DNA of 64,000 nt from NCBI GenBank assembly GCA_005881495.1, contig VBHI01000226.1, forward strand, positions 1 to 64,000. The letters are read 5' to 3'. The stretch comes from Chloroflexota bacterium (GTDB lineage: Bacteria; Chloroflexota; Ktedonobacteria; Ktedonobacterales; Ktedonobacteraceae). This document shows positions 3,452-63,741 of this stretch, in pieces. The translations under genes were made by a program, and so were the position numbers. The notes under the pieces are model-generated. The model saw only the letters and a program-made list of their open reading frames with translations. It had not been told where the DNA came from and ran no database searches. The stretch's first letter is position 1. Each line of letters starts with the position of its first letter.

Positions 3452-5444
3452 TTATACACGACCTGGGATGCACACGCAGATACGCGCCCCAGCGCCCGGC
3501 GTACTCTCGATCTGGAACGTCCCGCCCAGGTTGGCGACGCGCTCGCGCATCGAGTGCAAGCCCAGGTGGCCCGGAAACGAGGCAGTTGTATCAAATCCCA
3601 CGCCATCGTCCCGCACTTCCATCGTAATACCATCGGCAGTCTGTTCCAGGCTCAGCACCACCTCGCTCGCGCGTGCATGCTTCACGGTGTTGTGCATGGC
3701 CTCTTGCGCGATGCGGTAGAGTTCCTGCTTGGTACGCAGCGGTAGATCGGGTTCGTCGCACAGCTCGGTCGAGACGGCTATCTCATATCTCGCTTGCAGC
3801 GCCGCCGCCTGCTTCGTAAGCGCCGAGACCAGCCCTTCCATCTCCAGCGATTCCGGGCGCAGTTCGAAGATCAGCGCGCGCATTTCGGCAAGGCCGGCCT
3901 CGGCCAGTGAGAGGACGTAGTCGAGCGGCTCAGCCACGTGATCAGGATCGCGGGAGAGAGCAATACGAGCAGCATGCGTCCCCAGCGAGATGCCGTAGAG
4001 CGCCTGGGAGACTGAGTCGTGCAACTCGCGCGCCAGCTTCTGCCGCTCCTCCAGCGCCGTAGTAGTCTGGTTGACTATGGCTCGCACTCAGCATGCCAAT
4101 CACATGATCTTTGAGCTTCAGTGGAACAGCTACCCACGAACGAATGTAACGGAAGGTTGTCTCCAGGAGTTCGCCAACCGCCTCCCGGTAGCCCTGAGCC
4201 AGGGAAGTTTCATTTTGCACGTTGTCAATGATGACCGGCTCCCCGCGACAGAGTATCTCCCAAATAGGTCCCATTTGCTTCAACGGGAAACGACGCTGCA
4301 CGATGTGTTCTTCAGATTGGGGCTCGCGTGTGCCAACGAGCACCAGATCTTCATTCTCTAAGATAGTGATGGCAGAGCCAGTAGAATCTACGACAACCTT
4401 AAGTTGATCGAGGATCAGATCCAGCAAAGGTTTCAGCTCAATCGTCGAGGCCACGTTGTGGGAGACCTCCAGCAGGGTAGACAACTCGCGCGTACGCTCC
4501 TCCACGCGCCGCTCCAGCAGTTGTTGGGCCTGCACGCGCTCGGTGATATCGCGCGCTATTCCCAGGATATGAGGCTTGCCCAGGTAGGTGAATGCCGTTC
4601 CGCGCGCCTCAACAGGGAACGTAGTGCCGTCTTTGCGTAGGGCGATTAATTGGTTTGGTACCTGGCCCCCACTCTGAATGATCCGGAGCGATTCTGCGAT
4701 GAGATGGTAATAATCGGGGTGGAGAGTAGCTGTGGTAGGTAAGCCGATAAATTCCTGGTGGCTGTAGCCGTACATCTGGCAGGCCGCAGGGTTCGCCTCG
4801 ACAATGCGGCCGTCCAGGCCGGCGATGAACATGGCATCGCTGGCGGCCTCAAAGATACTGCGGTATTGCTCTTCCCTCTCGCGCAATTGCTGCTCGGCCA
4901 GTTTGCGCTCTGTGATATCCGTATTTGACCCGGCCAGGCGGTACGCTTTGCCGTTTGCGTCGCGTAGAGCAGCTCCACGAGCGAGAATCCAACGATAGGT
5001 GCCATCCTTGTGCCGCAGGCGGTATTCGATTTCATAGGAGTCTGTCTCACCATTGATGTAGGCCCGGCCAGCCGCTAACGTCCGATCGATATCATCGGGG
5101 TGTATGCGTTTGCGCCACTCTTCGACATTATCAGCGATCTCATGTTCCTCATATCCCAGCATGCTTTTCCACCGCGTCGAGAGATGGTATTCGTCGGAGG
5201 AGATATGCCGGTCCCACAACCCATCGTTGGCGCCTTGCACCGCCAGCCAGAAGCGTCCCTGGGTATCAAGCCTGTCCTGCTGGCGCTGCTGGAGTCGTTC
5301 TAGCGCGGCGCGAAAGCTGGTGAGCAGGCGCCGTTGCCCTGCATCTTCCGGCCAGACCTCGGTTGGCACGGCAGGTATCCGATCAGGGTCTTCGATGATC
5401 TGGTGGAAGAGGTCCAGGAGGGTATCCTCAATGGTCGCGTTCAT
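3452..5444 (-). pseudogene. PAS-PAS-GAF NarL-type sensor histidine kinase, broken by internal deletion and frameshift
   Basis: The first frame (5444 to about 4060) encodes PAS 1 (about residues 66-190, WKSMLGY...IHPDD), PAS 2 (190-310, EANPAACQMYGYS) and a GAF domain (335-460) ending at SHSQPDYY, then runs into unrelated sequence. A second frame (from about 4060 to 3452) carries the HisKA_3 phospho-acceptor box (LARELHDSVSQALYG), the N-box (EAMHNTVKHA) and the ATP-lid GVGFD of a NarL-family kinase. The roughly 30 residues that normally join the GAF end to the ALEERQ motif are missing and the frame changes at the same place, near 4055-4065. The start ATG at 5444 has AAGGGCAAGG upstream. It lies 36 bases after the response regulator gene, its likely partner. 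As written, no full kinase is made. Confidence 0.85.
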
Positions 5445-5480
5445 ACCTTGCCCTTGTTTCTTGCTTGACGAGAGGTATCC

Positions 5481-6131
5481 TCATTCTGCCTTCTCTGCTG
5501 AATCGAGCGAGACCAGGCCGGTGCGGATGGCAAAGAGTGTGGCCTGGGTGCGGCTCTGCACGCCCAATTTGGAGAGGATTCTACTGACATGTGACTTGAT
5601 GGTCCGCTCGGTATTGTGCAGGCGGTAAGCGATTTGTTTGTTAGATTGGCCCTGGGCGAGCAGACGCAGCACCTCGGTCTCGCGTTTGGTCAGCGCTTCG
5701 GGGCTTTCAGGAATACTCACCGCCTGCATCAAGCGCGCCGCCGCTCTGGGCGTCAACTGTACTTGCCCGGCTGCCGCCGCTTTGATGGCCTGGCACAGCG
5801 CCTCTGCCTGCGTATCTTTGAGCAGGTAGCCGATCGCCCCCGCGCGCACCGCTCCCACCACCGAGGCATCCTCTAAGACGCTGGTGAGGGCCAGCACCTC
5901 GGTATCGGGCAGTTCGCGCCGGATGGCGGCGGTGGCGGCGATACCGTCCATCACCGGCATCAGCAGGTCCATCAACACCACGTCCGGCTTGAGTTCTCGC
6001 GCCTGGCGCAGCGCCTCCGCGCCGTCCGACGCTTCGCCCACCACCTCCAGTTCGGGATCATATTTCAGGAACAGGCGCAGTCCCTGGCGCACGACGCTGT
6101 GATCATCGACGAGCAGAATACGAATGGTCAT
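5481..6131 (-). CDS. NarL/FixJ-type LuxR-family response regulator
   Basis: A 216-residue regulator. The receiver domain (residues 1-120) has the acidic pocket DDH, phospho-acceptor Asp in VVLMDLLMP, a Thr in LALTS and Lys in YLLKD. A LuxR-type helix-turn-helix follows (residues 145-205, LTKRETEVLRLLAQGQSNKQIA, TIKSHVSRILSKL). The ATG at 6131 is preferred over an upstream in-frame start at 6170 because AAAGGGGG lies just upstream and the receiver begins at once. It is followed 36 bases later by the broken NarL-type kinase, forming a regulator-kinase operon that would need the kinase to be intact to work in the usual way. Confidence 0.93.
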   Translation of the reverse strand: MTIRILLVDDHSVVRQGLRLFLKYDPELEVVGEASDGAEALRQARELKPDVVLMDLLMPVMDGIAATAAIRRELPDTEVLALTSVLEDASVVGAVRAGAIGYLLKDTQAEALCQAIKAAAAGQVQLTPRAAARLMQAVSIPESPEALTKRETEVLRLLAQGQSNKQIAYRLHNTERTIKSHVSRILSKLGVQSRTQATLFAIRTGLVSLDSAEKAE

Positions 6132-6393
6132 GTACCACCCCCTTTTCATAGCGGTGCTCACCCCTACCAAAGTATGAGAAGAAATCCATCGTTTGCCAGA
6201 TGCGTTACCGGGTTGCCGGAAACTATACTTGCTCTAGAAAGAAGCAGTGACTGGGACTTGTACCTCAAAGCTGATCTGATCATTGATCGATGTCACAGCC
6301 AGCAAGTGAACGGTTCTGCTTCGTATTGTAGCACATAGCTGTTTTGCTTCTGGGAAAGTCAGAAACGCGCAGAGACTAGCAGACGAGGTACTG

Positions 6394-6777
6394 ATGATTC
6401 GCGTGTTGCTTGTCGATGATCAAGCCGTCGTGCGGCGCGGATTGTGTGTGCGCTTCCACCTGGAGCCGGATCTGCAGGTCGTTGGAGAAGCCAGCACCGG
6501 CAGAGAGGCGCTGACGCTCGCGCAGACCCTCACGCCCGACGTGGTGCTGATGGATATCGAGATGCCGGGGATGGATGGCATCGAGGCCACCGCAGCCCTG
6601 CGGACGATTGTCCCGCAGAGCGCCGTCGTGATCCTGAGCATCCATGACGACGTACAGACACGAGGACGGGCACAGGCCGCCGGAGCGGTCGCGTTTGTGG
6701 AGAAGCGTGGAGGAACCGATAGGCTGCTCTCTGCCATTCGCCAGGCAGCCGGGCAGGCAGGAAAGAGCCGCGAGTAA
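6394..6777 (+). CDS. Single-domain response regulator (receiver only)
   Basis: A 127-residue stand-alone receiver with the Asp pair LVDDQ, phospho-acceptor in VVLMDIEMPG, Ser at the conserved Thr/Ser position (ILSIHDD) and the conserved Lys (VEKRG). No output domain follows before the stop at 6777. GACGAGG lies 5 bases upstream of the ATG. It is divergent from the NarL-type regulator across a 262-base gap. It probably acts through protein contact or as a phosphate sink; the partner is unknown. Confidence 0.88.
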   Translation: MIRVLLVDDQAVVRRGLCVRFHLEPDLQVVGEASTGREALTLAQTLTPDVVLMDIEMPGMDGIEATAALRTIVPQSAVVILSIHDDVQTRGRAQAAGAVAFVEKRGGTDRLLSAIRQAAGQAGKSRE

Positions 6778-6925
6778 CTGATCAGCTCCTCCCGCTGTTC
6801 TCGTGGAGGCTTCGGCAAGAAAGGAGGGATACCCGCCAGCAAAGCGCATACAAAAGCATGGCTCTCATTTGTTGCAGATGACATCTCCTGAGAGCACACC
6901 TCAGGAGACACACAGGAGGTTCATT

Positions 6926-7621
6926 ATGGCTAATCACAAGTTGCTTCGTCTGTCAGCGACGCTGCTGTTCATCGGTTTAGTGGTCTTCGGCGTAACGATT
7001 CCCCTGCACCCGCCAGGTGCCAATGACCACCAAGCCGCGTTTACCGCGTACGCGAATAGCTCGAGCTGGGCCGCTATCCACCTCGGGCAGTTCGTCGGGA
7101 CGGCGGTCATCATTGCGGGACTGCTGGTCCTGTTCTTCGCGCTCAACGTCTCGGAGGGAACACCGCGCTGGCTGGGGTTCTTCGGGGCCATTGCGGCAGG
7201 GGTGGCACTGGCGCTGGCCGGCGTCCGATTTGCCGTGGACGGGGTGGCCCTCAAGCAGGCGGTGGATGCGTGGGTAAGCGCACCAGCAGCGGAGCAGGCA
7301 GCACGCTTTGCCAGTGCGGAAGCCCTCCGGTGGCTGGAGTGGGGGACAACAAGCTATCAGGACTTCATGTTGGGTCTCGCGCTGGTGCTGTTCGCGATCG
7401 TGATCGTGTGGACGGCAAGAGTCCCCAGGCCGGTCGGCTACCTGATGGGATTGTCGGGCCTGGCCTCGCTCGTACTGGGCTGGGTGATCGGTGCCGAGGG
7501 CTTCGCGCCCATCGGTGAGGTGCCATCATATGCAGCCCCAGTCTTTCTCTTTGCGTCGATCATCTGGCTGCTCATCGTCGCCTGGCGGAGGAAGGAGTCG
7601 GCCCAAGCCGCTCCCGCATAA
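6926..7621 (+). CDS. Multi-pass membrane protein, function unknown
   Basis: A 231-residue protein with about six hydrophobic helices: residues 8-25, 55-75, 85-108, 150-170, 175-195 and 207-225. There is a soluble stretch at 25-50 with an LHPPGANDHQAAF motif and a charged C-terminal tail. The start ATG at 6926 has AGGAGG 7 bases upstream, so the longer in-frame extension to 6803 is not used. It looks like other four-to-six-helix proteins of unknown function. No catalytic motif is visible. Confidence 0.75.
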   Translation: MANHKLLRLSATLLFIGLVVFGVTIPLHPPGANDHQAAFTAYANSSSWAAIHLGQFVGTAVIIAGLLVLFFALNVSEGTPRWLGFFGAIAAGVALALAGVRFAVDGVALKQAVDAWVSAPAAEQAARFASAEALRWLEWGTTSYQDFMLGLALVLFAIVIVWTARVPRPVGYLMGLSGLASLVLGWVIGAEGFAPIGEVPSYAAPVFLFASIIWLLIVAWRRKESAQAAPA

Positions 7622-8080
7622 GCCATCCACCGGCGGCCTCCGGAAGTGCCCCAGGGAAAGGAACTTCCCTTGAGGAAGCTCGTAACACTTGGGCCAAAAG
7701 TTCCTCTGTATTAGAGCCATTATGTGGATCAGCTTTATCGTGTCCTGATCTCACAACACTGCCGGGGACACAGTACATCTGGCCTATTTGCACCATTTCC
7801 ATTTCCCCTGATACAATAAAAAGCACATTGTTTGGTCGGACACTCTTTGATATCCCCTCAAATATAAGAGAAGGGCTTTACGGGCAACCTGTGTCGCGTC
7901 AAATAAAGACATAAGACGTTGTTGATATTCATGAGAGGTCACCTGAAAAAACTTATCAGCAATGGATATAGCTGGATACAGGTATTGTGGATATGCTTGC
8001 ACGTGGGCAGGCGCTTCTGGCGCTGGCGAATACAACTCTGGCTCCAGCAATTACATATAACGGAAAGCACGCATACTGGA
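7622..8080. other. Intergenic stretch with a possible 88-codon minus-strand frame
   Basis: No recognised gene. On the minus strand 8050-7784 is an open frame of 88 codons (TTG start, no good ribosome site) whose amino acid composition looks protein-like (ISIADKFFQVTSHEYQQR). It could be a relic or a small gene. No tRNA or strong terminator was seen. Confidence 0.3.
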
Positions 8081-8776
8081 ATGAAACAAACCCTGCTTCT
8101 TATTCGACATGGGCAGACAACCTGGAATGCTGATCACATACTCCCTGGGCAATTACCAGGGATTGAGTTGAATGATAAAGGAAGAGAGCAAGCAGCGCGC
8201 CTCGCGAATGCCCTGGCTCTTATTCCGATCAGTGCCATTATTACTAGTCCACTGGAACGAGCACGCGATACCGCAGAAATTATCAATCAGGGGAGAGATC
8301 TTACTATACAGCTTGAGCCGAATTTGATGGACACCAATGTTGGCCGCTGGGCGGGACAAAAGTTTGACGAACTTGCTAAAATCGATCCCGATTGGAAAGC
8401 CTACGTCCAGGATCCATCAGTTGCTCCTGAAGGTATCGAGACGTTTCCCCAGGTACAGCAGCGAGCCCTGAAAGCAGTTGAACACTGGTGCACAAAGGAT
8501 TCCATTGGGGCCTACCCGGTATTTGTAGCTCATGCCGATGTCGTTAAATTGCTTGTGGCACATTACACAGGTCTGGAGGCTGGCAAGGCAGGCAAACTTT
8601 TCATTGATAATGCCTCTGTAAGCCTCGTCGAAATTGATAGTGAGCAACTCCAGCACACGCGGGTCATTGCCGTTGGTTGGAGCCCGCACCCAGGATGGCT
8701 CAAACCTGCAATAGTAGAAGCAAAGAAAGATAAGGAAGATACTTCCTTAAACGAAAACAACGAACAGAAAAAGTAG
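8081..8776 (+). CDS. Histidine phosphatase family protein (phosphoglycerate mutase-like)
   Basis: A 231-residue member of the histidine phosphatase superfamily. The catalytic RHG motif is in LLIRHGQTTWN near the N terminus, followed by ELNDKGREQAARLA, the SPLERARDTAEI helix, the acid-loop Glu region and the second catalytic His in FVAHADVVKLLVAHY. It probably removes phosphate from a small molecule, or acts as a mutase. The ATG at 8081 starts directly at the fold; the longer frame from a TTG at 7919 has no homology-like character. The C terminus is a charged, Lys-rich tail. It precedes the CpaF-like ATPase by 45 bases. Confidence 0.9.
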   Translation: MKQTLLLIRHGQTTWNADHILPGQLPGIELNDKGREQAARLANALALIPISAIITSPLERARDTAEIINQGRDLTIQLEPNLMDTNVGRWAGQKFDELAKIDPDWKAYVQDPSVAPEGIETFPQVQQRALKAVEHWCTKDSIGAYPVFVAHADVVKLLVAHYTGLEAGKAGKLFIDNASVSLVEIDSEQLQHTRVIAVGWSPHPGWLKPAIVEAKKDKEDTSLNENNEQKK

Positions 8777-8821
8777 AAGAGAACGAAATTCTATAGATTG
8801 CGTACCGAAGGGAGTGCTAGT

Positions 8822-9670
8822 ATGTTTGATCCACGAGATCCCATGGAACGCTATTATTGGCATTATGAATCCAGGCGACAACTCTCCATTGCACAGATCA
8901 TAGCCATGGAAAGTGTTGATGTAGAAACAGTTGCACTGACCTGGTTATTGCTGGAACATGGGACCTCACTGACAGTATCAGGGCCGACCGATCCCCAGCC
9001 AGGTGTGGGCAAAACCACGACACTGAATGCTCTACTCCAGTTTCTCCCAGAAGGAACGGCGCTGGCCTATATGTCGGGTATGTATGAAAATTTTGCCTTT
9101 ACTCGCATACCCAATATCAATCCTGCCACGACCTATGCATTGTGTAACGAAGTAAGCGACCATCTGCCAATCTACATGTGGGGTAGAGTAGCGCGTCGCT
9201 ATTTGACGCTACCAGCGCAAGGTTATCATATCGCCACAAGCGTTCATGCAGACACTGTTCAGGATGTCATCTCCTTGTACCATCACGACCTGCATCTCAG
9301 AGCAGAAGATGTGCGCCGCTTAGGCCTGGTTGTCAATATTGGCCTGGTGGGACACGTGTATCCCCTGCGTCGCCGCTGGTTTACCACGTATGTTTTACAG
9401 CCCGACGCCGATCCCAAACATCCTGATGAGATTGTACCTATTCCGCTTTCTCTCTGGAATGAGTTTGACGATACCTTTGAGCACGCGGACCAGCCAATTT
9501 TAGACGACCTGGCGAAATGGGCCGGAATAGCGGCAAACCAATTTGCCCCTGCCCTCAAACTGCGCATTGACTGTTTACGTCAGGTGTCACAGGGGCATGG
9601 AGTTGATCACAGTCAAATGTACGATGCTATTGACGAAGTGCGGCAATGTGAAAAGAACAACCTCCCTTGA
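8822..9670 (+). CDS. CpaF/VirB11-like secretion-type ATPase
   Basis: A 282-residue P-loop ATPase resembling the core of type II/IV secretion ATPases. The nucleotide-binding loop reads SGPTDPQPGVGKTTT, four residues longer than the usual GPTGSGKTT. It is followed by a short N-box-like region and by ATSVHADTVQDVISLY, which matches the His box of CpaF/VirB11. Part of the family's N-terminal domain is missing. ATG 8822 has GGGAG upstream. No pilin, prepilin peptidase or other secretion gene is in the window, so it may be an orphan member or have a different role. It sits between the phosphatase and the glycosyltransferase, all on the plus strand. Confidence 0.75.
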   Translation: MFDPRDPMERYYWHYESRRQLSIAQIIAMESVDVETVALTWLLLEHGTSLTVSGPTDPQPGVGKTTTLNALLQFLPEGTALAYMSGMYENFAFTRIPNINPATTYALCNEVSDHLPIYMWGRVARRYLTLPAQGYHIATSVHADTVQDVISLYHHDLHLRAEDVRRLGLVVNIGLVGHVYPLRRRWFTTYVLQPDADPKHPDEIVPIPLSLWNEFDDTFEHADQPILDDLAKWAGIAANQFAPALKLRIDCLRQVSQGHGVDHSQMYDAIDEVRQCEKNNLP

Positions 9671-54758: not shown

Positions 54759-57700
54759 TTAGAAGAGGACTTCAGGCTGAACAATCTCAACCTGCCCAGG
54801 CTCACGAATATCGATCTCGAGATGCCCATCCCTGGCCTTCACATGGACTTCTCCATGCTCGGGTATATTGGCGAGGAGGATGCGCAGGCTGAGTGGCACG
54901 GTCAGCAAGCGTTCAATGGCACGACGCAGGGGCCGCGCTCCCTGCGTTTGGCTGAAGCCTTCTTTACAGAGCAGGTCGATAGCACTGTCATCCGCGTGTA
55001 AAGTCAATCCTTGCTCAAGCAGGCGAGCGCCTAGCTCATTCATCTGCAGGCGCGTGATGGCGCGCGCCTGTTCCTGTCCCAATGGATGGAAGATTACCAC
55101 TTCATCGATACGATTAAGGAATTCAGGGCGGAAGGTCTGGCGCAAGCGCTCTAGTAAGCGGTCGCGCTGCATCTCCTCCGCTGTTCCTTTCATCGTGGCG
55201 CGGAAGCCACTGGGCATTGATCGCCCCAGCATATCGGTACCTACGTTAGAAGTCATTATCCATATGGCATGCTGAGCATCGACGGTATGGCCCTGGGCGT
55301 CTGTCAAGCGACCGGCGTCAAACACTTGTAAGAAGAGATCAAAGACTTCCGGGTGGGCCTTCTCTAGTTCATCCAGCAAGACGACACAATGAGGACGGCG
55401 GCGCAGCTTGCCGGTCAATTGACCTTCCTGGTCGTGCCCGATATAGCCAGGAGGAGCGCCAACCATGCGCGAGACCGCGTGCTTCTCCATGTATTCTGAC
55501 ATATCGATGCGAATCAGGTATTCGTCGGAACCAAAGACTTCTGCCGCCAGGGCGCGCGCCAGTTCGGTCTTACCGACCCCTGTCGGTCCCAAGAAGAGGA
55601 AGATACCGGCAGGGCGGTTACGCGGCTTCAAACCGGCGCGGGCCACTTGAATGGCCTGCGTAACACGGCTGATGGCCTCATCCTGGCCGATAACCCTTGC
55701 TTTGAGGCGAGATTCCAGGTTCAACAGGCGATCCCGTTCCTCGCGTCCTGGTGCCCGCACGGGTATACCTGTGCGGTGTGAGATTACTTCGGCGATCATT
55801 GAAGCAGTGATCACAGGCAACTCATCCAGATCTTCGAGATCATCTTCTTGATCCGCTCCCTCTGCCGCTGCATCTTCCATTGAGAAGACACGCGCCTGCG
55901 AACAGGCTTCATCCAGAACACTGCACGCTTTGTCGGGTAGACGCAAATTGGGCAGGTACTGCACAGAAAGATGCACCGCGGCGTGGAGAGCCTCTTTGGT
56001 AATACTGACGTTGTGGTGCTGCTCATAGAGATCCCGCATACCTGTCAGAATAGTGAGGGCCTCCTCGGGGGTTGGTTCCTCGATGATTACCGGGCGCAGG
56101 CGGCGCTCCATTGCGGCATCTTTTTCAATCAGGCGGTACTCTTGCGCGGTGGTGGCGCCAATACAGCGCAATCGACCACCGGCCAGGGCAGGCTTTAGAA
56201 TACCCGCCGCGTCAATACTGCCATCAGCGGCACGCCCTGTTCCTATGAGCAGGTGCATTTCATCAATGAAGAGAATGATATTGCCGGCGCTCTCTGCCTC
56301 CTCAAGAACTTTTAAGAGCCGCTCCTCAAATTCGCCGCGGTATTTGGTGCCAGCAACCAGCGAACTGGCAGAGAGTTCGATCAGGCGCTTGCCACGCAAT
56401 TCGGCAGGGACCTTCCCATCGACGATACGCTGGGCGAGGCCGCCCACAATGGTTGTCTTCCCAACTCCTGAATCGCCAATCAAGACGGGATTATTGCGAT
56501 CCTTGAGCATCAGCGTCTGCATGAGGAGACGCAGTTCTTTCGCGCGCCCAATCAGGGGCGTCAACTGTTTAAGACTGGCCTGCCTGGTCAGGTCGCGCCC
56601 CAGGCGTTCCAGAACCGAATTGCTTCCTTTAGCCACAACATCGGGGCTTACCCCTACTGGAAGCTCAACGGATGCGTCCGCCGGATTCGCGCTGATATAT
56701 GGCAGCAGTTCGAGCAATGCTCGCGCATTGCTGGCCAGGATAAGCTCTATCAATTGCGCTGGATTAATGCCCAGTTTAGTGAGTAATTCATGTGTGACGC
56801 CATCCCCTTCACTCAATACTGCCTGCGCGATTGCTCGCTCGTCTATTGTAGGTGAGTCAGAGAGTATGGCATTGCGCTCAGCCGTCTGCAGGATCTCCTT
56901 ACAACGGCGAGTTGGGAGAATTGGCGTATCACTGGTGGCTTTCCCATTGCCCAGCGCCAGGCGAATAACATCGCGCACCTGTTTGGGAGAGAAGCCCAGG
57001 GTATGCAGCGCATCCTGTGTACACCCGCCATCTAGCTTTGTGAGAGCGATAAAAAGATGGGGAGTCCCCAGGTAGTCCTTGTGCATACGCCGCGCTTCCA
57101 TCAAAGCAAGGCCCAGCACTTCCTGCAAAAAACGGCGTTCAAGCGTGTTCGAGGAAGACATCATAGGAGGGATCAGGTGGTTATCATCAAATGCCTCAAA
57201 GCGCGGTTCGTTGCTACGCTCTTTGCTTGAAGCAGAAGCAGTCACTAAGCGTTGCGTGGGGTCGCCAAAGAGCACAAAAGACATCCAGGATGTGTCCTCC
57301 GGGTGATGCTGCGCCATACTTGATCGCGCCCGGCGCACTGCTTCACCAAGTGCCACTCCATCCGCCACATCCTGGTAGCAGAGCACCGTAAATTCGCGCG
57401 TGCGCTGAGTGCTGACAGGCCAGCGCATAGCCAGCACAGCGCCTGCCCCCGACACTAACAGGTTACGCGCCAGTTTCTCCATGGATTCTTCCCGTTCCTG
57501 CTGGCTTGGGACCGAACTACCATTGCGACTCTGCCGCTCATTTTCATGATAGCTCAGAAAAACCAGGGGACGCCTTGGTAACGGCTGCAATAATTGTTCG
57601 AGGACAGCGCTATCTAAACGGGAACTACCTCCAAGAACCAGGACAGGTTCCTCTCCCCTGGTAATGGGCAACGGCCCGGCATAATGAAGCACATGCGGTG

Positions 57701-58418
57701 AATCTGCGCTGATACGCATCTTCATCTCCAGCTGATTCGCCTGCTGGCGATAGAGAATGATACGCGACACCGATTCGGGCAGGGTTGTGCAGAGCGTGGC
57801 AACCTCTTCTTCGGCCACAGGACGGTCACCGCCAGGGTTTACAAGAAACAATACCGTCAGACCCTGTGCTTCACGACGCCCTATTTTTCGCGTAGTCCGC
57901 TCCGATACAGGGAGACGAGGTGCCCCATCAAGACCACCAGCCACCTGCCGACCTATACTGAGGTGCTGGCAAAGAAAACGCCCGGGTTTCGTTTTGCTAT
58001 CTAACAATAACTCCCAGGGAATGTCAGGTGTGTTGGTATTGATAATAAGTGGCGTGTCAAGGTGACGGAGCGCCTCTTGTATCCGGGTGGGCAGCAGATG
58101 ATCAAATAGGAAGCGTCCCAGGTTGAGCAAAGAATCATTGTTGGCGCTCGTCTTCATTGTCTGGCGTTTTACATCTGCCAGGGCCATAGTTTGCTCAATT
58201 GCCTGCATTTGTTGGGCAGTCGCCTGGGCCATAGCTTGCTCAATTGCCTGCATTTGTTGGGCAGCCGCTTGTAAAGCGCGTCGCAGGCGCTGGCGTATCT
58301 CGGGTGTGAGATCAATACTGTATTCCTGATCTCCTTGAGATGAACCCTCAGGCAGTTCGAGTCGAAAACGGTAGACAGTCTCTGTCCGTAGTATTGTAAG
58401 CAGAGCCGATTGTTCCAT
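54759..58418 (-). CDS. CHAT-domain / Clp (Hsp100) AAA+ fusion protein
   Basis: A 1,219-residue protein. 1-90: N-terminal region with a short duplicated helix (AQQMQAIEQ twice, from a DNA repeat near 58180-58260). About 100-395: CHAT (caspase-like) domain ending VSGAGAVLAMRWPV...WMSFVLFGDP; the His expected in the AGHG-like motif reads AGPL (Pro249) and the Cys of the LSACE motif reads LSYHE (His291), so the dyad is lost. About 425-560: divergent Clp_N. About 615-840: AAA+ D1 with Walker A GDSGVGKTT and Walker B ILFIDEMH; the coiled-coil M domain is replaced by an acidic linker (850-868). About 905-1110: D2 with GPTGVGKTEL and VVLLDELEKAHP, PEFLNRIDE, and an SGF at 1070-1072 near the ClpP-loop position. 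Then the C-terminal D2 small domain. The ATG at 58418 is preferred; the frame to 58529 has no added homology. A DUF4012 gene lies 120 bases upstream on the same strand. Confidence 0.9.
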   Translation of the reverse strand: MEQSALLTILRTETVYRFRLELPEGSSQGDQEYSIDLTPEIRQRLRRALQAAAQQMQAIEQAMAQATAQQMQAIEQTMALADVKRQTMKTSANNDSLLNLGRFLFDHLLPTRIQEALRHLDTPLIINTNTPDIPWELLLDSKTKPGRFLCQHLSIGRQVAGGLDGAPRLPVSERTTRKIGRREAQGLTVLFLVNPGGDRPVAEEEVATLCTTLPESVSRIILYRQQANQLEMKMRISADSPHVLHYAGPLPITRGEEPVLVLGGSSRLDSAVLEQLLQPLPRRPLVFLSYHENERQSRNGSSVPSQQEREESMEKLARNLLVSGAGAVLAMRWPVSTQRTREFTVLCYQDVADGVALGEAVRRARSSMAQHHPEDTSWMSFVLFGDPTQRLVTASASSKERSNEPRFEAFDDNHLIPPMMSSSNTLERRFLQEVLGLALMEARRMHKDYLGTPHLFIALTKLDGGCTQDALHTLGFSPKQVRDVIRLALGNGKATSDTPILPTRRCKEILQTAERNAILSDSPTIDERAIAQAVLSEGDGVTHELLTKLGINPAQLIELILASNARALLELLPYISANPADASVELPVGVSPDVVAKGSNSVLERLGRDLTRQASLKQLTPLIGRAKELRLLMQTLMLKDRNNPVLIGDSGVGKTTIVGGLAQRIVDGKVPAELRGKRLIELSASSLVAGTKYRGEFEERLLKVLEEAESAGNIILFIDEMHLLIGTGRAADGSIDAAGILKPALAGGRLRCIGATTAQEYRLIEKDAAMERRLRPVIIEEPTPEEALTILTGMRDLYEQHHNVSITKEALHAAVHLSVQYLPNLRLPDKACSVLDEACSQARVFSMEDAAAEGADQEDDLEDLDELPVITASMIAEVISHRTGIPVRAPGREERDRLLNLESRLKARVIGQDEAISRVTQAIQVARAGLKPRNRPAGIFLFLGPTGVGKTELARALAAEVFGSDEYLIRIDMSEYMEKHAVSRMVGAPPGYIGHDQEGQLTGKLRRRPHCVVLLDELEKAHPEVFDLFLQVFDAGRLTDAQGHTVDAQHAIWIMTSNVGTDMLGRSMPSGFRATMKGTAEEMQRDRLLERLRQTFRPEFLNRIDEVVIFHPLGQEQARAITRLQMNELGARLLEQGLTLHADDSAIDLLCKEGFSQTQGARPLRRAIERLLTVPLSLRILLANIPEHGEVHVKARDGHLEIDIREPGQVEIVQPEVLF

Positions 58419-58538
58419 ATTACTTATTATTCCACACTGTACCCGGAATACGCCAAATTCGCGTCCATGACGAAAAGCACACCGCGATGTTTGCAAAAGC
58501 AGTATACGAGAGGGATATGTCAGTGTCAATACTTACGC

Positions 58539-60836
58539 TTATACTCCCGGTTGTGGGTAACATCCTGCTCTCACATTTTCTCCTACCGGGAAGTTTCTCA
58601 AAACAAAGTTTGTATCTTCTCCGAGGATACCATTAAAGTATTGCCCCGCGGTTTTGAGCACGCCACAATTGCCAGGAGACGGCAGAATGGTGAGATCTAA
58701 TTCGGGAAAGGTACCCGTCTGGCGCTGCACCAGCAGAGTATAAGGAGTGGTATGCCCTGCTGGCGGAACATACCACGAGAGAGTGACAGTCATCGTGCAG
58801 TTTTTGGGCACGATCACCCAACCTCCAAACATCGCTCGCCCGGGTTCATCGCTTTGAAAACTAGTCGGCGGTCCCACGGTATCCAGTGGATGCCAGCGCC
58901 CACCATTCTCGTCGCTGAGCGAAGGGGCGGCCGCCCCTGGCTGGGATTGACCGGTCGGGCACAGCAGTTCATGGTTTGGATATACATCTGTAGACGCGCA
59001 GGCAGAATAGAACGCGCCACAGAGTGGTATCCCGGTGTCAAAGCCATCTCCCCACAAATATTTACTCGTTGGAGGGACATACACACGCACATAGTCATGA
59101 TACGTATCATAGCCATATACTGGCCCAACCTGGTTGTACACCAGGCGCAATTGCATGAGATGTGTAGCGCCTCCATCAGCATTCAGGGTCACCGTGTCAT
59201 GCATAATGGTTCTTACATACTGAGAGGCTTTGCTGGCGCTGATATTCGCCTGGACAACGTATAACCCATCGTGTGTCGTGGAGCGATCAATCTGCGCAGA
59301 ATCACCAAATTGTACCAGCGCTGCCTCTACTTGCGGATTTGTCACATAAATTTGCAAATCCTTTGTCTTCACATCATAGAGCACCTGCTGAGCAATGGCA
59401 AGAATCTCGTCTGGGGGAGCCTGACGTAGACGATCTACCAACAAGTGCGCCAATAGGGCGGTAAAACGTTTACGGCTGGACGTCGCTTTATCGCCAGGTT
59501 GATAAAGCTGTTTGAGTATGCCAACGTTATCCAGCTGGTAGTAATGCAAGCGTTCTTCAAGGTTCTGAGCCGTAATCGCGTCATTATAACCGGGCACCTC
59601 AACAGGCCCAATGACCTGTAAGATATGCTCGATCAAGAAAGGAGTGAACATGATCACTCCGTCGACCTGGTGACCAACCTCGCTTTTGTATTTAGTGATA
59701 GCGATCTGGGCGGAAGTCGGAAAATCAGCAGACAGATTTGAGTCACGCAACCCCCAATTAGCAAAAGGCCACCAGCTGCGATACTGCGGAAGCGCTCTGA
59801 CCCCAAGGGTGGGACTATTTTCGACGTACTCTACCAGCGAGATGTCCCTGAGTGAGAATGGAGCAACTCGTCCGCCGTTAATAGAAAGTTCGCCGTATTG
59901 CCCGGTAAATCCTCCTGTTGGACGCAGCTCAGCCCGGTCCATGGTCTGGACAAGAAATGTACGCGGTTCGTTCACACCAAGCATCCATCCAGCGGCGTCC
60001 AGCAGATTACGGACCTGTACCAGGTCCGTTTGCGCCTGTGGAAGCAACTGGAGCAACTGCACCAATTGGGCGCGCTGATGAGCGCTTATATTGGCTGGCA
60101 GGGCCTCCAGCGAAAACTTATGGCTCTGTGTCTGGATATCACGCAACATCGGCAGGATATTGTTGATGGTGGTGCGCACAAGCTCAAGCATAGCCGGGGT
60201 AACTAGCGGCTTGTTCGTTGCATTGAGTAGCGGTTCGCGGAATGATGGCGCGAGTATCGTCGCTGCGTGAATAAGCTCTTGCCCGATATTTGTAACTTCA
60301 ATCCCAATCTGGCTAAGGGCGCGAGTCGTGGTAACCTGGCTGCTATACTGGGGAAAATAGTGTACGACCGTGCCGATAACAGCAGCATGATCGAGAGTGT
60401 ACTGGACCTGCTGAAAATCCTTGTGAGCAGTACTAAACTCTTTCTGCGCAAGATGCAATTTGCCCAGATCAAGAAAGCCAGTTGGATGGATTTTGAGGCC
60501 AGTAAAAACTGTTTTCACGTTGAACAGGTGCTGAATACCATCATAGGCTTCGCTGCGCAGGGTCGTATAGGTAGTATAAGCGCCTATACCAAAGTTTATA
60601 GCCAGGGCGGCGGAAATGATCGTACCGCTTAAAGCCAGCAACAACAGAGGGATAACTATCCTGAGGGTCTTCTTTTTGCGCCGAGGGTGAGGAGCTGGTA
60701 GAACAGGAGGCGCTGATACGGTTGATGGTATTATAACCGATATATTTATATCAGCTATTTGACTATCCTCAAGGTTTTCTTCAGCAGGTGTTCTACCAGT
60801 CTCTAAAGGGCCGCTGTTCGGTAACGTGTCGGACAT
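58539..60836 (-). CDS. DUF4012-domain membrane protein
   Basis: A 765-residue protein. N-terminal cytoplasmic tail (1-52), one membrane helix (about 58-82), a helical region to about 285, then the DUF4012 signature: FLVQTMDRAELRPTGGFTGQYG, SLRDISLVEYVENSP, WWPFANWGLRDSNLSADFPTS and KSEVGHQVDGVIMFTPF. DUF4012 proteins are anchored outside the cell and are thought to act in cell-envelope assembly, with a distant likeness to LytR-type enzymes; the reaction is unknown. A C-terminal beta-rich domain of about 250 residues follows, with several Cys that could form disulfides. It is on the same strand as, and upstream of, the CHAT-Clp gene. Confidence 0.87.
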   Translation of the reverse strand: MSDTLPNSGPLETGRTPAEENLEDSQIADINISVIIPSTVSAPPVLPAPHPRRKKKTLRIVIPLLLLALSGTIISAALAINFGIGAYTTYTTLRSEAYDGIQHLFNVKTVFTGLKIHPTGFLDLGKLHLAQKEFSTAHKDFQQVQYTLDHAAVIGTVVHYFPQYSSQVTTTRALSQIGIEVTNIGQELIHAATILAPSFREPLLNATNKPLVTPAMLELVRTTINNILPMLRDIQTQSHKFSLEALPANISAHQRAQLVQLLQLLPQAQTDLVQVRNLLDAAGWMLGVNEPRTFLVQTMDRAELRPTGGFTGQYGELSINGGRVAPFSLRDISLVEYVENSPTLGVRALPQYRSWWPFANWGLRDSNLSADFPTSAQIAITKYKSEVGHQVDGVIMFTPFLIEHILQVIGPVEVPGYNDAITAQNLEERLHYYQLDNVGILKQLYQPGDKATSSRKRFTALLAHLLVDRLRQAPPDEILAIAQQVLYDVKTKDLQIYVTNPQVEAALVQFGDSAQIDRSTTHDGLYVVQANISASKASQYVRTIMHDTVTLNADGGATHLMQLRLVYNQVGPVYGYDTYHDYVRVYVPPTSKYLWGDGFDTGIPLCGAFYSACASTDVYPNHELLCPTGQSQPGAAAPSLSDENGGRWHPLDTVGPPTSFQSDEPGRAMFGGWVIVPKNCTMTVTLSWYVPPAGHTTPYTLLVQRQTGTFPELDLTILPSPGNCGVLKTAGQYFNGILGEDTNFVLRNFPVGENVRAGCYPQPGV

Positions 60837-61433: not shown

Positions 61434-62855
61434 CTATAACTTACGGGTTGCCCTACCTCTGGCCCGCGCGAGGGGCGGATAGTAAGCCTGCGTTATCGCC
61501 ACGATATCTCCAATACGTAACTGTACTTGTAAGTAGCGGTAAGCCGGTCGGTGATAATGCGCAAAGAGCATCAAAGCGTGATTAGCAATCACATCAGCCT
61601 CATCCGTATGGCGAGAGAGAATCATCTGACCACCAATCGTCTCCTCGGCGGCAGTGACGGCCACCTCTTCGCCTTCTTCATTCATCAGCAGCCTGCGCGT
61701 ATCCCGCTGCACGTTGCGATGAGGCCAGAGCATCAACGCAATGGTCTGACCTTTCAGCCGTTGCTCCCTTAAACGCTCTCCCAGATAGTTAGCAAGTTTG
61801 CGAACAGCGGCACAGGTTTCGTCTGCATCTGTGGGAGTATGAAAACGCACGCGTGCATTCTGGCTTAAAGGAGGTGCGTCAGGCACAACGAGGCTGGTAT
61901 CCTCGCCACAGGCGACCTGATACACCCACGAGCCTAGGCGCCCCAGGCGGCGGCGCAAACCCTCTTCCGTCAACGCTGCTACCTGGGCGAAAGAGTTTAT
62001 ACCGAAATCTCGCAGGTGTGCCACCAGTTCAGCTACTGCTACCGAGTCCACCTGTTCGCTCTTCCCCTCGACCTCTGGCGGACGCGAGCCAGAATTCTCT
62101 ACTTGCTCTCCCAGGTCTGGCAACGCACTCGGGATACCTGCACCTGCGGCGCGCAGTTGCAAGAGCATCGAAAGCGGTAACGTCTGTACAAATGATGCTT
62201 CGCGCCCAGCAGGGATATATAATACACCCTGGCGTCCATTTTTGCGGCTCATTAGCGCGGCGAGTTCAGCAACTGCCTTTCCATTGGCGATCCCAATCAG
62301 CGCGGTCAATCCCATCTCAGCCACCTCCGCGCATAGGCGCTCAGCCAGTGCGACGGGCGAGTCAAATGGAATTTCACAGCCACGCAGATCAATAAAAGTG
62401 TCCGCGATAGGTATCGATTCAATAATACGAGAATAGGCTTTATACCGTTCGCGCAAGCTTTGCAATACAGGTTGATAGCGATCATACGAGGCCGGCAAAA
62501 AACGAGTACGCGGAACTATACCCTTAGCGCGCCGCAAAGGCATCCCGGGACTGACGCCCAGGCGCATCGCGGCAGGAGAAGCATCAATAACACGGCCCGG
62601 TTCATTTGGTCTCCCTGTGCCGGTCCCCACGACAAAACTTTGGCCATGCAAGGAGGGATCGAACATCTCCTCCAGAGTGCAATAAAAGTGGCGAATACGC
62701 ACATGCATAATACCCTGCCGCAGACGGGCCCGTTCAGCGGCGCGAGCAGCTTCCTGCATGTCCAGAGACAGACCTGCAGGTTGATGTTCCCGAGAAGTAC
62801 CGTTCGATGGTGGCAAAGGGCTGCTGGTAGAAGTGTTGATGTTATATTGTTGCAT
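61434..62855 (-). CDS. Y-family polymerase-like protein with degenerate catalytic site (ImuB/DinB-like)
   Basis: A 473-residue protein with the layout of a Y-family DNA polymerase: finger/palm start HVRIRHFYCTLEEMFDPSLHG, VVGTGTGRPNEPGRVIDASPAAMRLGV, palm strand SIPIADTFIDLRG, TALIGIANGKAVAELAA, thumb/HhH region (LVAHLRDFGINSFAQVAALTEE) and little finger (RVRFHTPTDADETC). The catalytic acids are lost: the first Asp (of the IDMDAFF type) is Arg53, and the D of the SIDEA motif is Ala151, though the next position is Asp152. This matches ImuB-type proteins, which bridge the replication clamp and other polymerases in mutagenesis. No imuA or dnaE2 lies in the window. A hydrophilic insert lies near residues 240-275. 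The ribosome site before the ATG is weak. Confidence 0.85.
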   Translation of the reverse strand: MQQYNINTSTSSPLPPSNGTSREHQPAGLSLDMQEAARAAERARLRQGIMHVRIRHFYCTLEEMFDPSLHGQSFVVGTGTGRPNEPGRVIDASPAAMRLGVSPGMPLRRAKGIVPRTRFLPASYDRYQPVLQSLRERYKAYSRIIESIPIADTFIDLRGCEIPFDSPVALAERLCAEVAEMGLTALIGIANGKAVAELAALMSRKNGRQGVLYIPAGREASFVQTLPLSMLLQLRAAGAGIPSALPDLGEQVENSGSRPPEVEGKSEQVDSVAVAELVAHLRDFGINSFAQVAALTEEGLRRRLGRLGSWVYQVACGEDTSLVVPDAPPLSQNARVRFHTPTDADETCAAVRKLANYLGERLREQRLKGQTIALMLWPHRNVQRDTRRLLMNEEGEEVAVTAAEETIGGQMILSRHTDEADVIANHALMLFAHYHRPAYRYLQVQLRIGDIVAITQAYYPPLARARGRATRKL

Positions 62856-63273: not shown

Positions 63274-63741
63274 GTGGAGAACAGGGACAGGTTTAATAAA
63301 TTTACAGAACGTGCTCGCAAGGTCTTGACACTGGCACAGGAAGAGGCTCAACGCTTCCAACACAACTACATCGGCACTGAACATCTCCTACTCGGCCTTG
63401 TGCGCGAAGGTGAAGGGGTTGCCGCCAAAGTATTAACGAACCTCGGCATACAATTGAGTGACGTGCGTGCCGCAATTGAATATATTATCGGTCGTGGTGA
63501 CCACGCGGCACCCGGTGATATTGGCCTTACTCCCCGTGCAAAAAAAGTAATTGAGCTGGCTGTTGATGAAGCAAAGCTGTTGAAGCACCAGTATATTGGC
63601 ACCGAACACCTTCTCCTGGGACTGGTACGCGAAGGGGAAGGTATTGCCGCGGGAGTACTGGCGGGCATGGGCGTGAAACTCGAGCAGGTGCGTGCAGAAA
63701 CTCTGAAAGTGCTTCAATCAATTCAAGATACAAAGGAATAA
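63274..63741 (+). CDS. Stand-alone tandem Clp N-terminal domain protein
   Basis: A 155-residue protein made of two Clp_N repeats: repeat 1 (about 5-75, FTERARKVLTLAQEEAQRF, YIGTEHLLLGLVREGEGVAA) and repeat 2 (about 85-150, LTPRAKKVIELAVDEAKLL, YIGTEHLLLGLVREGEGIAA). It is nearly identical in style to the ClpC N domain, but no AAA+ rings follow. Such proteins could bind substrates or adaptors of a Clp unfoldase, or compete with them. Start is GTG at 63274 with AAAGG 10 bases upstream. The candidate partner in this window is the CHAT-Clp fusion; a housekeeping ClpC elsewhere is just as likely. Confidence 0.88.
   Translation: MENRDRFNKFTERARKVLTLAQEEAQRFQHNYIGTEHLLLGLVREGEGVAAKVLTNLGIQLSDVRAAIEYIIGRGDHAAPGDIGLTPRAKKVIELAVDEAKLLKHQYIGTEHLLLGLVREGEGIAAGVLAGMGVKLEQVRAETLKVLQSIQDTKE

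Follow-up and report, generated by a model that had tools for sequence, protein, structure and literature searches.

A gene joining a CHAT domain to a Clp unfoldase

The DNA analyzed here (the window) is a 64,000-nucleotide stretch, positions 1 to 64,000 of contig VBHI01000226.1 in assembly GCA_005881495.1, from a Chloroflexota bacterium of the family Ktedonobacteraceae. On its minus strand lies an open reading frame (ORF) of 1219 amino acids, counted from the ATG and followed by a stop codon, that encodes a fusion of a CHAT domain with a Clp ATPase. Pfam CHAT (PF12770) matched residues 100 to 386 over model positions 3 to 289 of 289 (E = 2.9e-18; 66.8 bits, against a curated cutoff of 24), and the remaining matches were to Clp_N (residues 438 to 489), AAA (645 to 767), AAA_lid_9, AAA_2 (935 to 1107), and ClpB_D2-small (1113 to 1193). 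Since every Pfam domain exceeds its own cutoff, the fusion architecture is not a chance effect. A sequence-only reading of the window had proposed that one protein joins CHAT to a complete two-ring Clp unfoldase, and both the ORF and its Pfam architecture agree. The features of the gene and its surroundings are collected in Table 1.

Table 1. Positions in the window of the CHAT-Clp fusion gene, its parts, and adjacent upstream features
Feature	Position	Strand	Basis
CHAT-Clp fusion gene	54759..58418	-	ORF, Pfam, relatives from protein database
Head, N-terminal part, residues 1-182 (counterpart of the pseudo-caspase CHAT1 half of Csx29/separase)	57873..58418	-	Predicted model; fold alignments begin at residue 1; boundary approximate
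CHAT2, residues 183-395, caspase-like half bearing the dyad in active relatives	57234..57872	-	Pfam CHAT 100-386, fold search, alignment
Pro249 codon, catalytic His position	57672..57674	-	Alignment of 264 proteins
His291 codon, catalytic Cys position	57546..57548	-	Alignment of 264 proteins
Residues 186-236, best conserved stretch noticed in the head; candidate contact surface	57711..57863	-	Column identity
Clp N-terminal domain, residues 431-575	56694..57128	-	Pfam first repeat 438-489; ClpC N-domain structures match 431-551 to 432-557
D1 ATPase ring and small domain, residues 600-846	55881..56621	-	Pfam, alignments
D1 Walker A GDSGVGKT, residues 648-655	56454..56477	-	G[DE][SLF]GVGKT in 209/209
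D1 Walker B ILFIDE, residues 715-720	56259..56276	-	Kept in 208/209
Acidic linker at M-domain position, residues 848-867	55818..55877	-	Alignment
D2 ATPase ring and small domain, residues 868-1200	54819..55817	-	Pfam, alignments
D2 Walker A GPTGVGKT, residues 944-951	55566..55589	-	Kept in 209/209
SGF, residues 1070-1072, aligned with VGF of the B. subtilis ClpC D2 loop	55203..55211	-	PDB alignment, family alignment
Sigma-70-type promoter-like element, TTGACA and TATACT 17 bases apart; its end lies 82 bases upstream of the ATG	58501..58529	-	Pattern in upstream regions
Upstream neighbor with DUF4012 domain	58539..60836	-	Pfam; synteny

The CHAT head lacks both catalytic residues throughout the family

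Relatives were collected in two protein-database searches, in which scoring was confined to the candidates with the most words in common with the query (7993 and 7996, respectively). The window's own protein, the best 120 of 360 matches, and 119 new proteins among 120 listed of 420 gave a set of 240; adding 24 proteins from fetched loci, one of which duplicates a database row or forms part of one, gave 264. Four CHAT domains in which both catalytic residues are retained (L027, L028, L029, and L030, with HYAGH, HYSGH, or HFAGH), all taken from other genomes in the phylum, were aligned with the window protein. Its HYAGP and LSYH stand opposite H-[YF]-[AS]-G-H and [SN]-A-C, in agreement with the proposal that the dyad is lost, with Pro249 for His and His291 for Cys. 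Across the 264 family proteins, position 249 holds Pro in 250 and Ala, Ser, or Val in 9, 3, and 2, respectively, and position 291 is Y in 105, H in 96, F in 39, Q in 10, L in 8, V in 4, R in 1, and T in 1. The catalytic His or the catalytic Cys stood at its own position in none of the 264 proteins collected.

A search begun from the dyad-keeping L028 CHAT returned 37 proteins, of which 5 carried Clp domains, all inside the fusion family; 4 of these had been collected before, and the one new protein, P0270, carries P and H at the dyad positions. The sequence-only reading had allowed that homologues keeping both residues would make this copy simply mutated. That explanation is ruled out, since the dyad is lost in every member examined. 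With the dyad kept in 0 of 264 proteins, the head is therefore, judged by sequence, a pseudo-protease and no standard CHAT protease, and peptidase activity is predicted to be absent.

The same reading would have failed had residues 100 to 395 not been a CHAT fold; residues 1 to 394 were modeled as a CHAT/separase module. The predicted model and a fold search both gave a separase/caspase-like fold for the head, whereas a CHAT-profile sequence search among solved structures returned nothing meaningful. In the model, the N-terminal part of the head has strands at residues 5 to 36, a helix at 39 to 75, and helices at 81 to 118 and onward. The model covers 565 residues, and its Clp_N part is weak, with ten-residue blocks at 36 to 81 from residue 411.

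Mean column identity was 0.889 for residues 186 to 236, compared with 0.766 for residues 183 to 395 overall, and mean identity to the window protein was 71% for CHAT versus 91% for D1 and D2. The ratio of nonsynonymous to synonymous substitution (omega) was calculated from 25 coding sequences, excluding L002 (partial) and L023 (decayed), for 12 hand-picked pairs. For the CHAT part, omega was 0.029 to 0.200 in 11 of the 12 pairs; the synonymous distance (dS) was saturated in one pair and several dS values exceeded 1, so these figures are rough. The head evolves faster than the motor, yet it is constrained and under purifying selection.

At residues about 50 to 80 (58179-58271, minus strand), the window protein is longer by some 20 residues, in which a QQMQAIEQ(A/T)MA unit is repeated. 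This added length is present in 4 of the 240 family proteins, the window's own among them.

The Clp motor is intact

Motor motifs were read in the 209 members of the 240-protein set that are longer than 1150 amino acids. Walker A is kept in all 209 for both D1 and D2, and the Walker B motifs ILFIDE and VVLLDE are each kept in 208; both pairs had been read as intact in the window protein, and the family alignment extends this. The pore loops TKYRGE and GY[IV]G are each present in 209 of 209. The protein has the features of a class I Clp/Hsp100 ATPase, namely, Clp_N, D1, D2, and D2-small, each ring having Arg fingers and aromatic pore loops.

The M domain had been described as replaced by an acidic linker, and a 20-residue segment rich in D/E was indeed found at that place. 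In the 114 family proteins of at least 900 amino acids, the linker measures 11 to 32 residues (median, 19) and averages 49% D/E. The UVR motif of the ClpC M domain had no Pfam match in the fusion, and it is present in the ClpC-like L032 of Ktedonobacter racemifer. Escherichia coli ClpA likewise has no M domain, so its lack alone is not unusual.

In ClpC, the D2 loop mediates ClpP binding, and known ClpP binders have an aliphatic-G-F/L loop. At this position, the 209 proteins have SGF (169), HGF (28), a gapped GF (4), VGF (3), ISF (2), TGF (1), GGF (1), or PGF (1). Among the paralogues, MGF or IGF was found in two ClpC-type proteins and in three shorter proteins with an N-terminal Cys cluster, which we labeled ClpE-like, and the loop is absent in four ClpB-type proteins, one of which (L034) scores above the ClpB model cutoff.

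The fusion scored 654.4 bits against the ClpA equivalog TIGR02639, below its cutoff of 993.15. Its highest NCBIfam score, 740.2 bits against the ClpB equivalog TIGR03346, is far below the cutoff of 1232.1, and the fusion has a short linker and the D2 loop. In a quick tree of the AAA core, with three long branches among the paralogues, the fusions formed one clade, which a long stem (0.92) separated from the 12 paralogues compared, drawn from three genomes.

Single-copy distribution in Ktedonobacteria

A whole-protein search of six Ktedonobacteria genomes found exactly one fusion gene beside several ordinary Clp genes, and at least two ClpP matches, in each of the six. Strong matches (E = 2.3e-126 or better), one gene each, were present in 28 of 47 Ktedonobacteria genomes; among these, G033 has only a 729-amino-acid open frame (a fragment), and G032 is a decayed copy in Dictyobacter vulcani. 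The tally of 33 of 47 obtained at E = 0.001 takes in weak matches to other CHAT proteins. When 400 genomes were drawn from the phylum, the same 28 recurred, and the next best match was at 2.3e-27. Coverage outside the phylum comes from the protein searches and a genome-contig scan, which gave 26 loci, every one in a record whose name gives Ktedonobacteria, Ktedonobacterales, Ktedonobacteraceae, or a genus of that group.

An unrooted tree of RpoB fragments was built for 37 of the 47 genomes; the ten left out include three carriers and three genomes without an RpoB match. It placed 25 carriers and the noncarrier G046 on one side and 11 noncarriers on the other (Shimodaira-Hasegawa-like approximate likelihood ratio test, 100). 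Presence of the fusion changes twice on this tree, G046 being one of the changes; G046 is a 3.2-Mb genome and perhaps incomplete. The pattern, on an unrooted tree, fits one gain followed by vertical descent. Two long RpoB matches were observed in each of G001, G002, G006, G030, G036, G037, G038, and G039.

The D. vulcani copy (L023:9794-13326) matches the protein in four pieces that alternate between two frames. Compared with another Dictyobacter, it shows 55 gap openings in three DNA pieces; two other species show none. A phage or mobile origin found no support, as none of 42 pattern matches in viral contigs was confirmed. Nor did the protein match a known anti-phage defense system over its length, PADLOC giving only partial matches inside the AAA regions.

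Genomic neighborhood and other CHAT proteins

The fetched loci span at most about 10 kb per side, compared with 64 kb for the window. In 18 of the 23 loci whose upstream sequence reaches 1.5 kb or more, the nearest same-strand gene on that side carries DUF4012; a small ORF on the opposite strand intervenes in L017, other ORFs do so in L016, and no DUF4012 gene occurs in the stretch fetched for L008, L011, and L023. Among 27 loci, the DUF4012 cluster recurs in 20, a kinase in 17, and a polymerase-like gene in 16. Much of the neighborhood is syntenic, so little can be concluded about function from the DUF4012 link. A tight operon with DUF4012 is further weakened by a promoter-like element of the fusion gene's own, TTGACA-N16-18-TATACT, in 14 of 25 upstream regions. 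Rough CIRCE, HspR-like, and CtsR-like patterns for heat-shock operators had no match in these 25 regions. A conserved leader, GGGAAG..TGTGGAAGAGAAG, stands just before the ATG in many loci, and the window has a diverged form of it at 58421-58437.

Two further neighbors were observed in the window. The ORF at 63274-63741 (plus strand) encodes a 155-amino-acid protein with two Clp_N repeats and no further domain, possibly acting as a Clp N-domain decoy or as an adaptor; its cluster (cluster 10) occurs in 4 of the 27 loci, the window included. The ORF at 61434-62855 (minus strand) encodes a diverged DNA polymerase IV-like protein with IMS domains, far below the NCBIfam cutoffs, whose cluster occurs in 16 of the 27 loci.

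A custom profile run over the 27 loci (330 predicted ORFs) found no second CHAT protein. CHAT matches lie 26 to 41 kb from the fusion in five genomes (K. racemifer, G002, G037, G038, and G039). The dyad was read in K. racemifer, whose TPR-CHAT protein, about 29 kb away, has HLATHG and SGC. CHAT-NACHT-TPR proteins with HFDGHG and [SA]-A-C were present in the three genomes examined. They are about 1300 amino acids long with His and Cys intact (L081:1144-5082, L082:1625-5647, and L083:2267-6001); L083 is cut by the fetched stretch, and domains were scanned in L081 and L082. A zinc-ribbon-like Cys cluster lies between their His and Cys, and beside them in L081 and L082 is an ORF that we take to resemble Obg. 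The CHAT proteins outside the fusion family lie far from it in sequence, the four fetched matching the family profile weakly (E = 1.3e-5 to 3.6e-4). The L027 frame (3992-8875, minus strand; 1627 amino acids) carries CHAT, guanylate cyclase, AAA_16, TPR, and solute-binding protein domains.

Interpretation and alternatives

Because the double-ring motor is intact and the ClpP-type loop is kept, while the head is dead yet still constrained, the protein looks like an unfoldase that partners with ClpP and uses its built-in head for docking or regulation. We therefore favor, with a probability of about 0.55, a lineage-specific Hsp100/Clp unfoldase that works with ClpP and carries the pseudo-protease CHAT head as a built-in adaptor. 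The earlier proposal of an ATP-driven unfoldase with a nonproteolytic CHAT head remains the best fit to the modeled CHAT/separase fold and to the loss of both dyad residues across the family. In this protein, two stacked rings would hydrolyze ATP and thread substrate through the pore into ClpP. The head has, in the model, the separase/Csx29 arrangement of paired caspase-like halves, with the cutting half stripped of both catalytic residues. Its most likely task would be to bind a marked substrate, a partner protein, or a peptide and deliver it to the pore. For ClpC, separate adaptors and the M domain perform such substrate delivery. Which proteins the motor unfolds is probably selected or regulated by the head. 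We infer a sensor or recruiter role for the head with ClpP as the partner, as we do the hexamer, the engagement of ClpP, the docking role, and the identity of the substrate.

Several observations weigh against this interpretation. GF is kept in 207 of the 209 D2 loops, and the residue before it is S or H, not aliphatic, in 197, so ClpP binding could be weak or lost. No ClpP was found among the six neighboring proteins scanned. The full-length model is poor (mean predicted local distance difference test score, 54.3), unusable for the Clp part, and silent on how the head is placed relative to the rings. The decayed D. vulcani copy shows that the gene can be lost.

The loop residue makes a ClpP-free remodeling chaperone or disaggregase the strongest rival, although we consider it rather unlikely. 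Its head would recruit aggregates or complexes that the rings separate without degradation, as ClpB or ClpG does. The ClpB model being the top NCBIfam score, albeit well under its cutoff, and the presence of several other Clp ATPases in each of the six genomes also favor it. ClpB, however, works with DnaK through a long M domain, which the fusion lacks, and the four ClpB-type paralogues have lost the loop entirely while the fusion retains GF. The CHAT proteins with intact dyads in the same genomes make two other relations possible. In one, which we hold to be improbable, the head is a degradation receptor that reads separase/Csx29-type peptides, for example, ends cut by an active CHAT, and feeds ClpP; the result would be a two-step relay, "cut, then unfold and degrade," with a reader that evolved from the cutter's fold. 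In the other, which we rate slightly lower, the dead CHAT is a decoy that binds, titrates, or activates a working CHAT protease in the same cell, and the ATPase remodels the partner or its products. Dead caspases that control active ones are known, as in FLIP (PMC7586951). The CHAT-NACHT-TPR proteins and the CHAT matches at 26 to 41 kb are consistent with such pairing, but the custom profile found no other CHAT in the 27 loci, and the CHATs elsewhere are distant in sequence from the family profile.

It is very unlikely that the head is a relic or spacer with no specific role. Its lower identity (71%) would suit a relic, but the omega values are low, albeit with several dS near saturation, and 51 head residues hold a mean column identity of 0.889. 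The whole-protein search of the six genomes also found no headless copy of the subfamily; the protein-database searches are blind to such copies because the head served as the query. Least probable is a head that retains enzyme activity at a displaced active site, for example, C210 and H245. Both residues are kept in 239 of 240 proteins, but H245 is the first His of HYAGH, present in the four intact CHATs too, and the model places C210 in a helix (residues 200 to 212), whereas the nucleophile sits where its strand ends.

Comparison with known systems

The fusion had been thought undescribed, and we found no description of it in the open-access literature, although one may exist elsewhere. Searches of that literature for the CHAT domain with Clp and AAA returned only Csx29, and with unfoldase or ClpA returned nothing; for Ktedonobacter with Clp and CHAT, no relevant title was among the best matches listed. 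Automated names from JGI include "ClpA/CHAT domain-containing protein." Both parts of the fusion are well known, and bacterial pseudo-caspases have already been described. Pseudo-orthocaspases that have lost the His-Cys dyad, reported for K. racemifer too (PMC6426788), are likewise dyad-less bacterial caspase relatives; however, they are p20 proteins, most often with Tyr-Ser, and that report does not mention AAA.

With the ClpC/ClpA class (B. subtilis ClpC, 3j3s; E. coli ClpA, 1ksf), the fusion shares Clp_N, D1, D2, the Walker motifs, the pore loops, and the D2 loop position. It differs in an extra head of about 430 residues, in having no M domain (as in ClpA), in forming its own long-stem clade, and in falling below the NCBIfam Clp cutoffs. 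Csx29, the TPR-CHAT of type III-E CRISPR systems, has catalytic H615/C658 and TPR repeats (PMC10028731), whereas the fusion head has no dyad and is joined to an unfoldase. The separase protease domain (5fby and 5fc2) is 15% identical to the head, which differs in lacking the dyad and in having a Clp partner. Among the nearest CHATs outside the family are the AAA_16-CHAT proteins of Anaerolineales and other Chloroflexota (L028; P0241 to P0269), at about 28% identity; L028, the one examined, keeps HYAGHG and SAC, and its ATPase is AAA_16, not Clp.

The gene is present in single copy across a Ktedonobacteria clade that includes several named strains with genomes, and it is therefore open to ordinary biochemistry. 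The fusion would be a bacterial case of a death-protease fold that persists as a binding module after catalysis is lost. Instructions reach Clp unfoldases through N-domains, M domains, and separate adaptors, and steering an AAA+ protease by means of a pseudo-caspase of the separase/Csx29 type, attached covalently, would be new.

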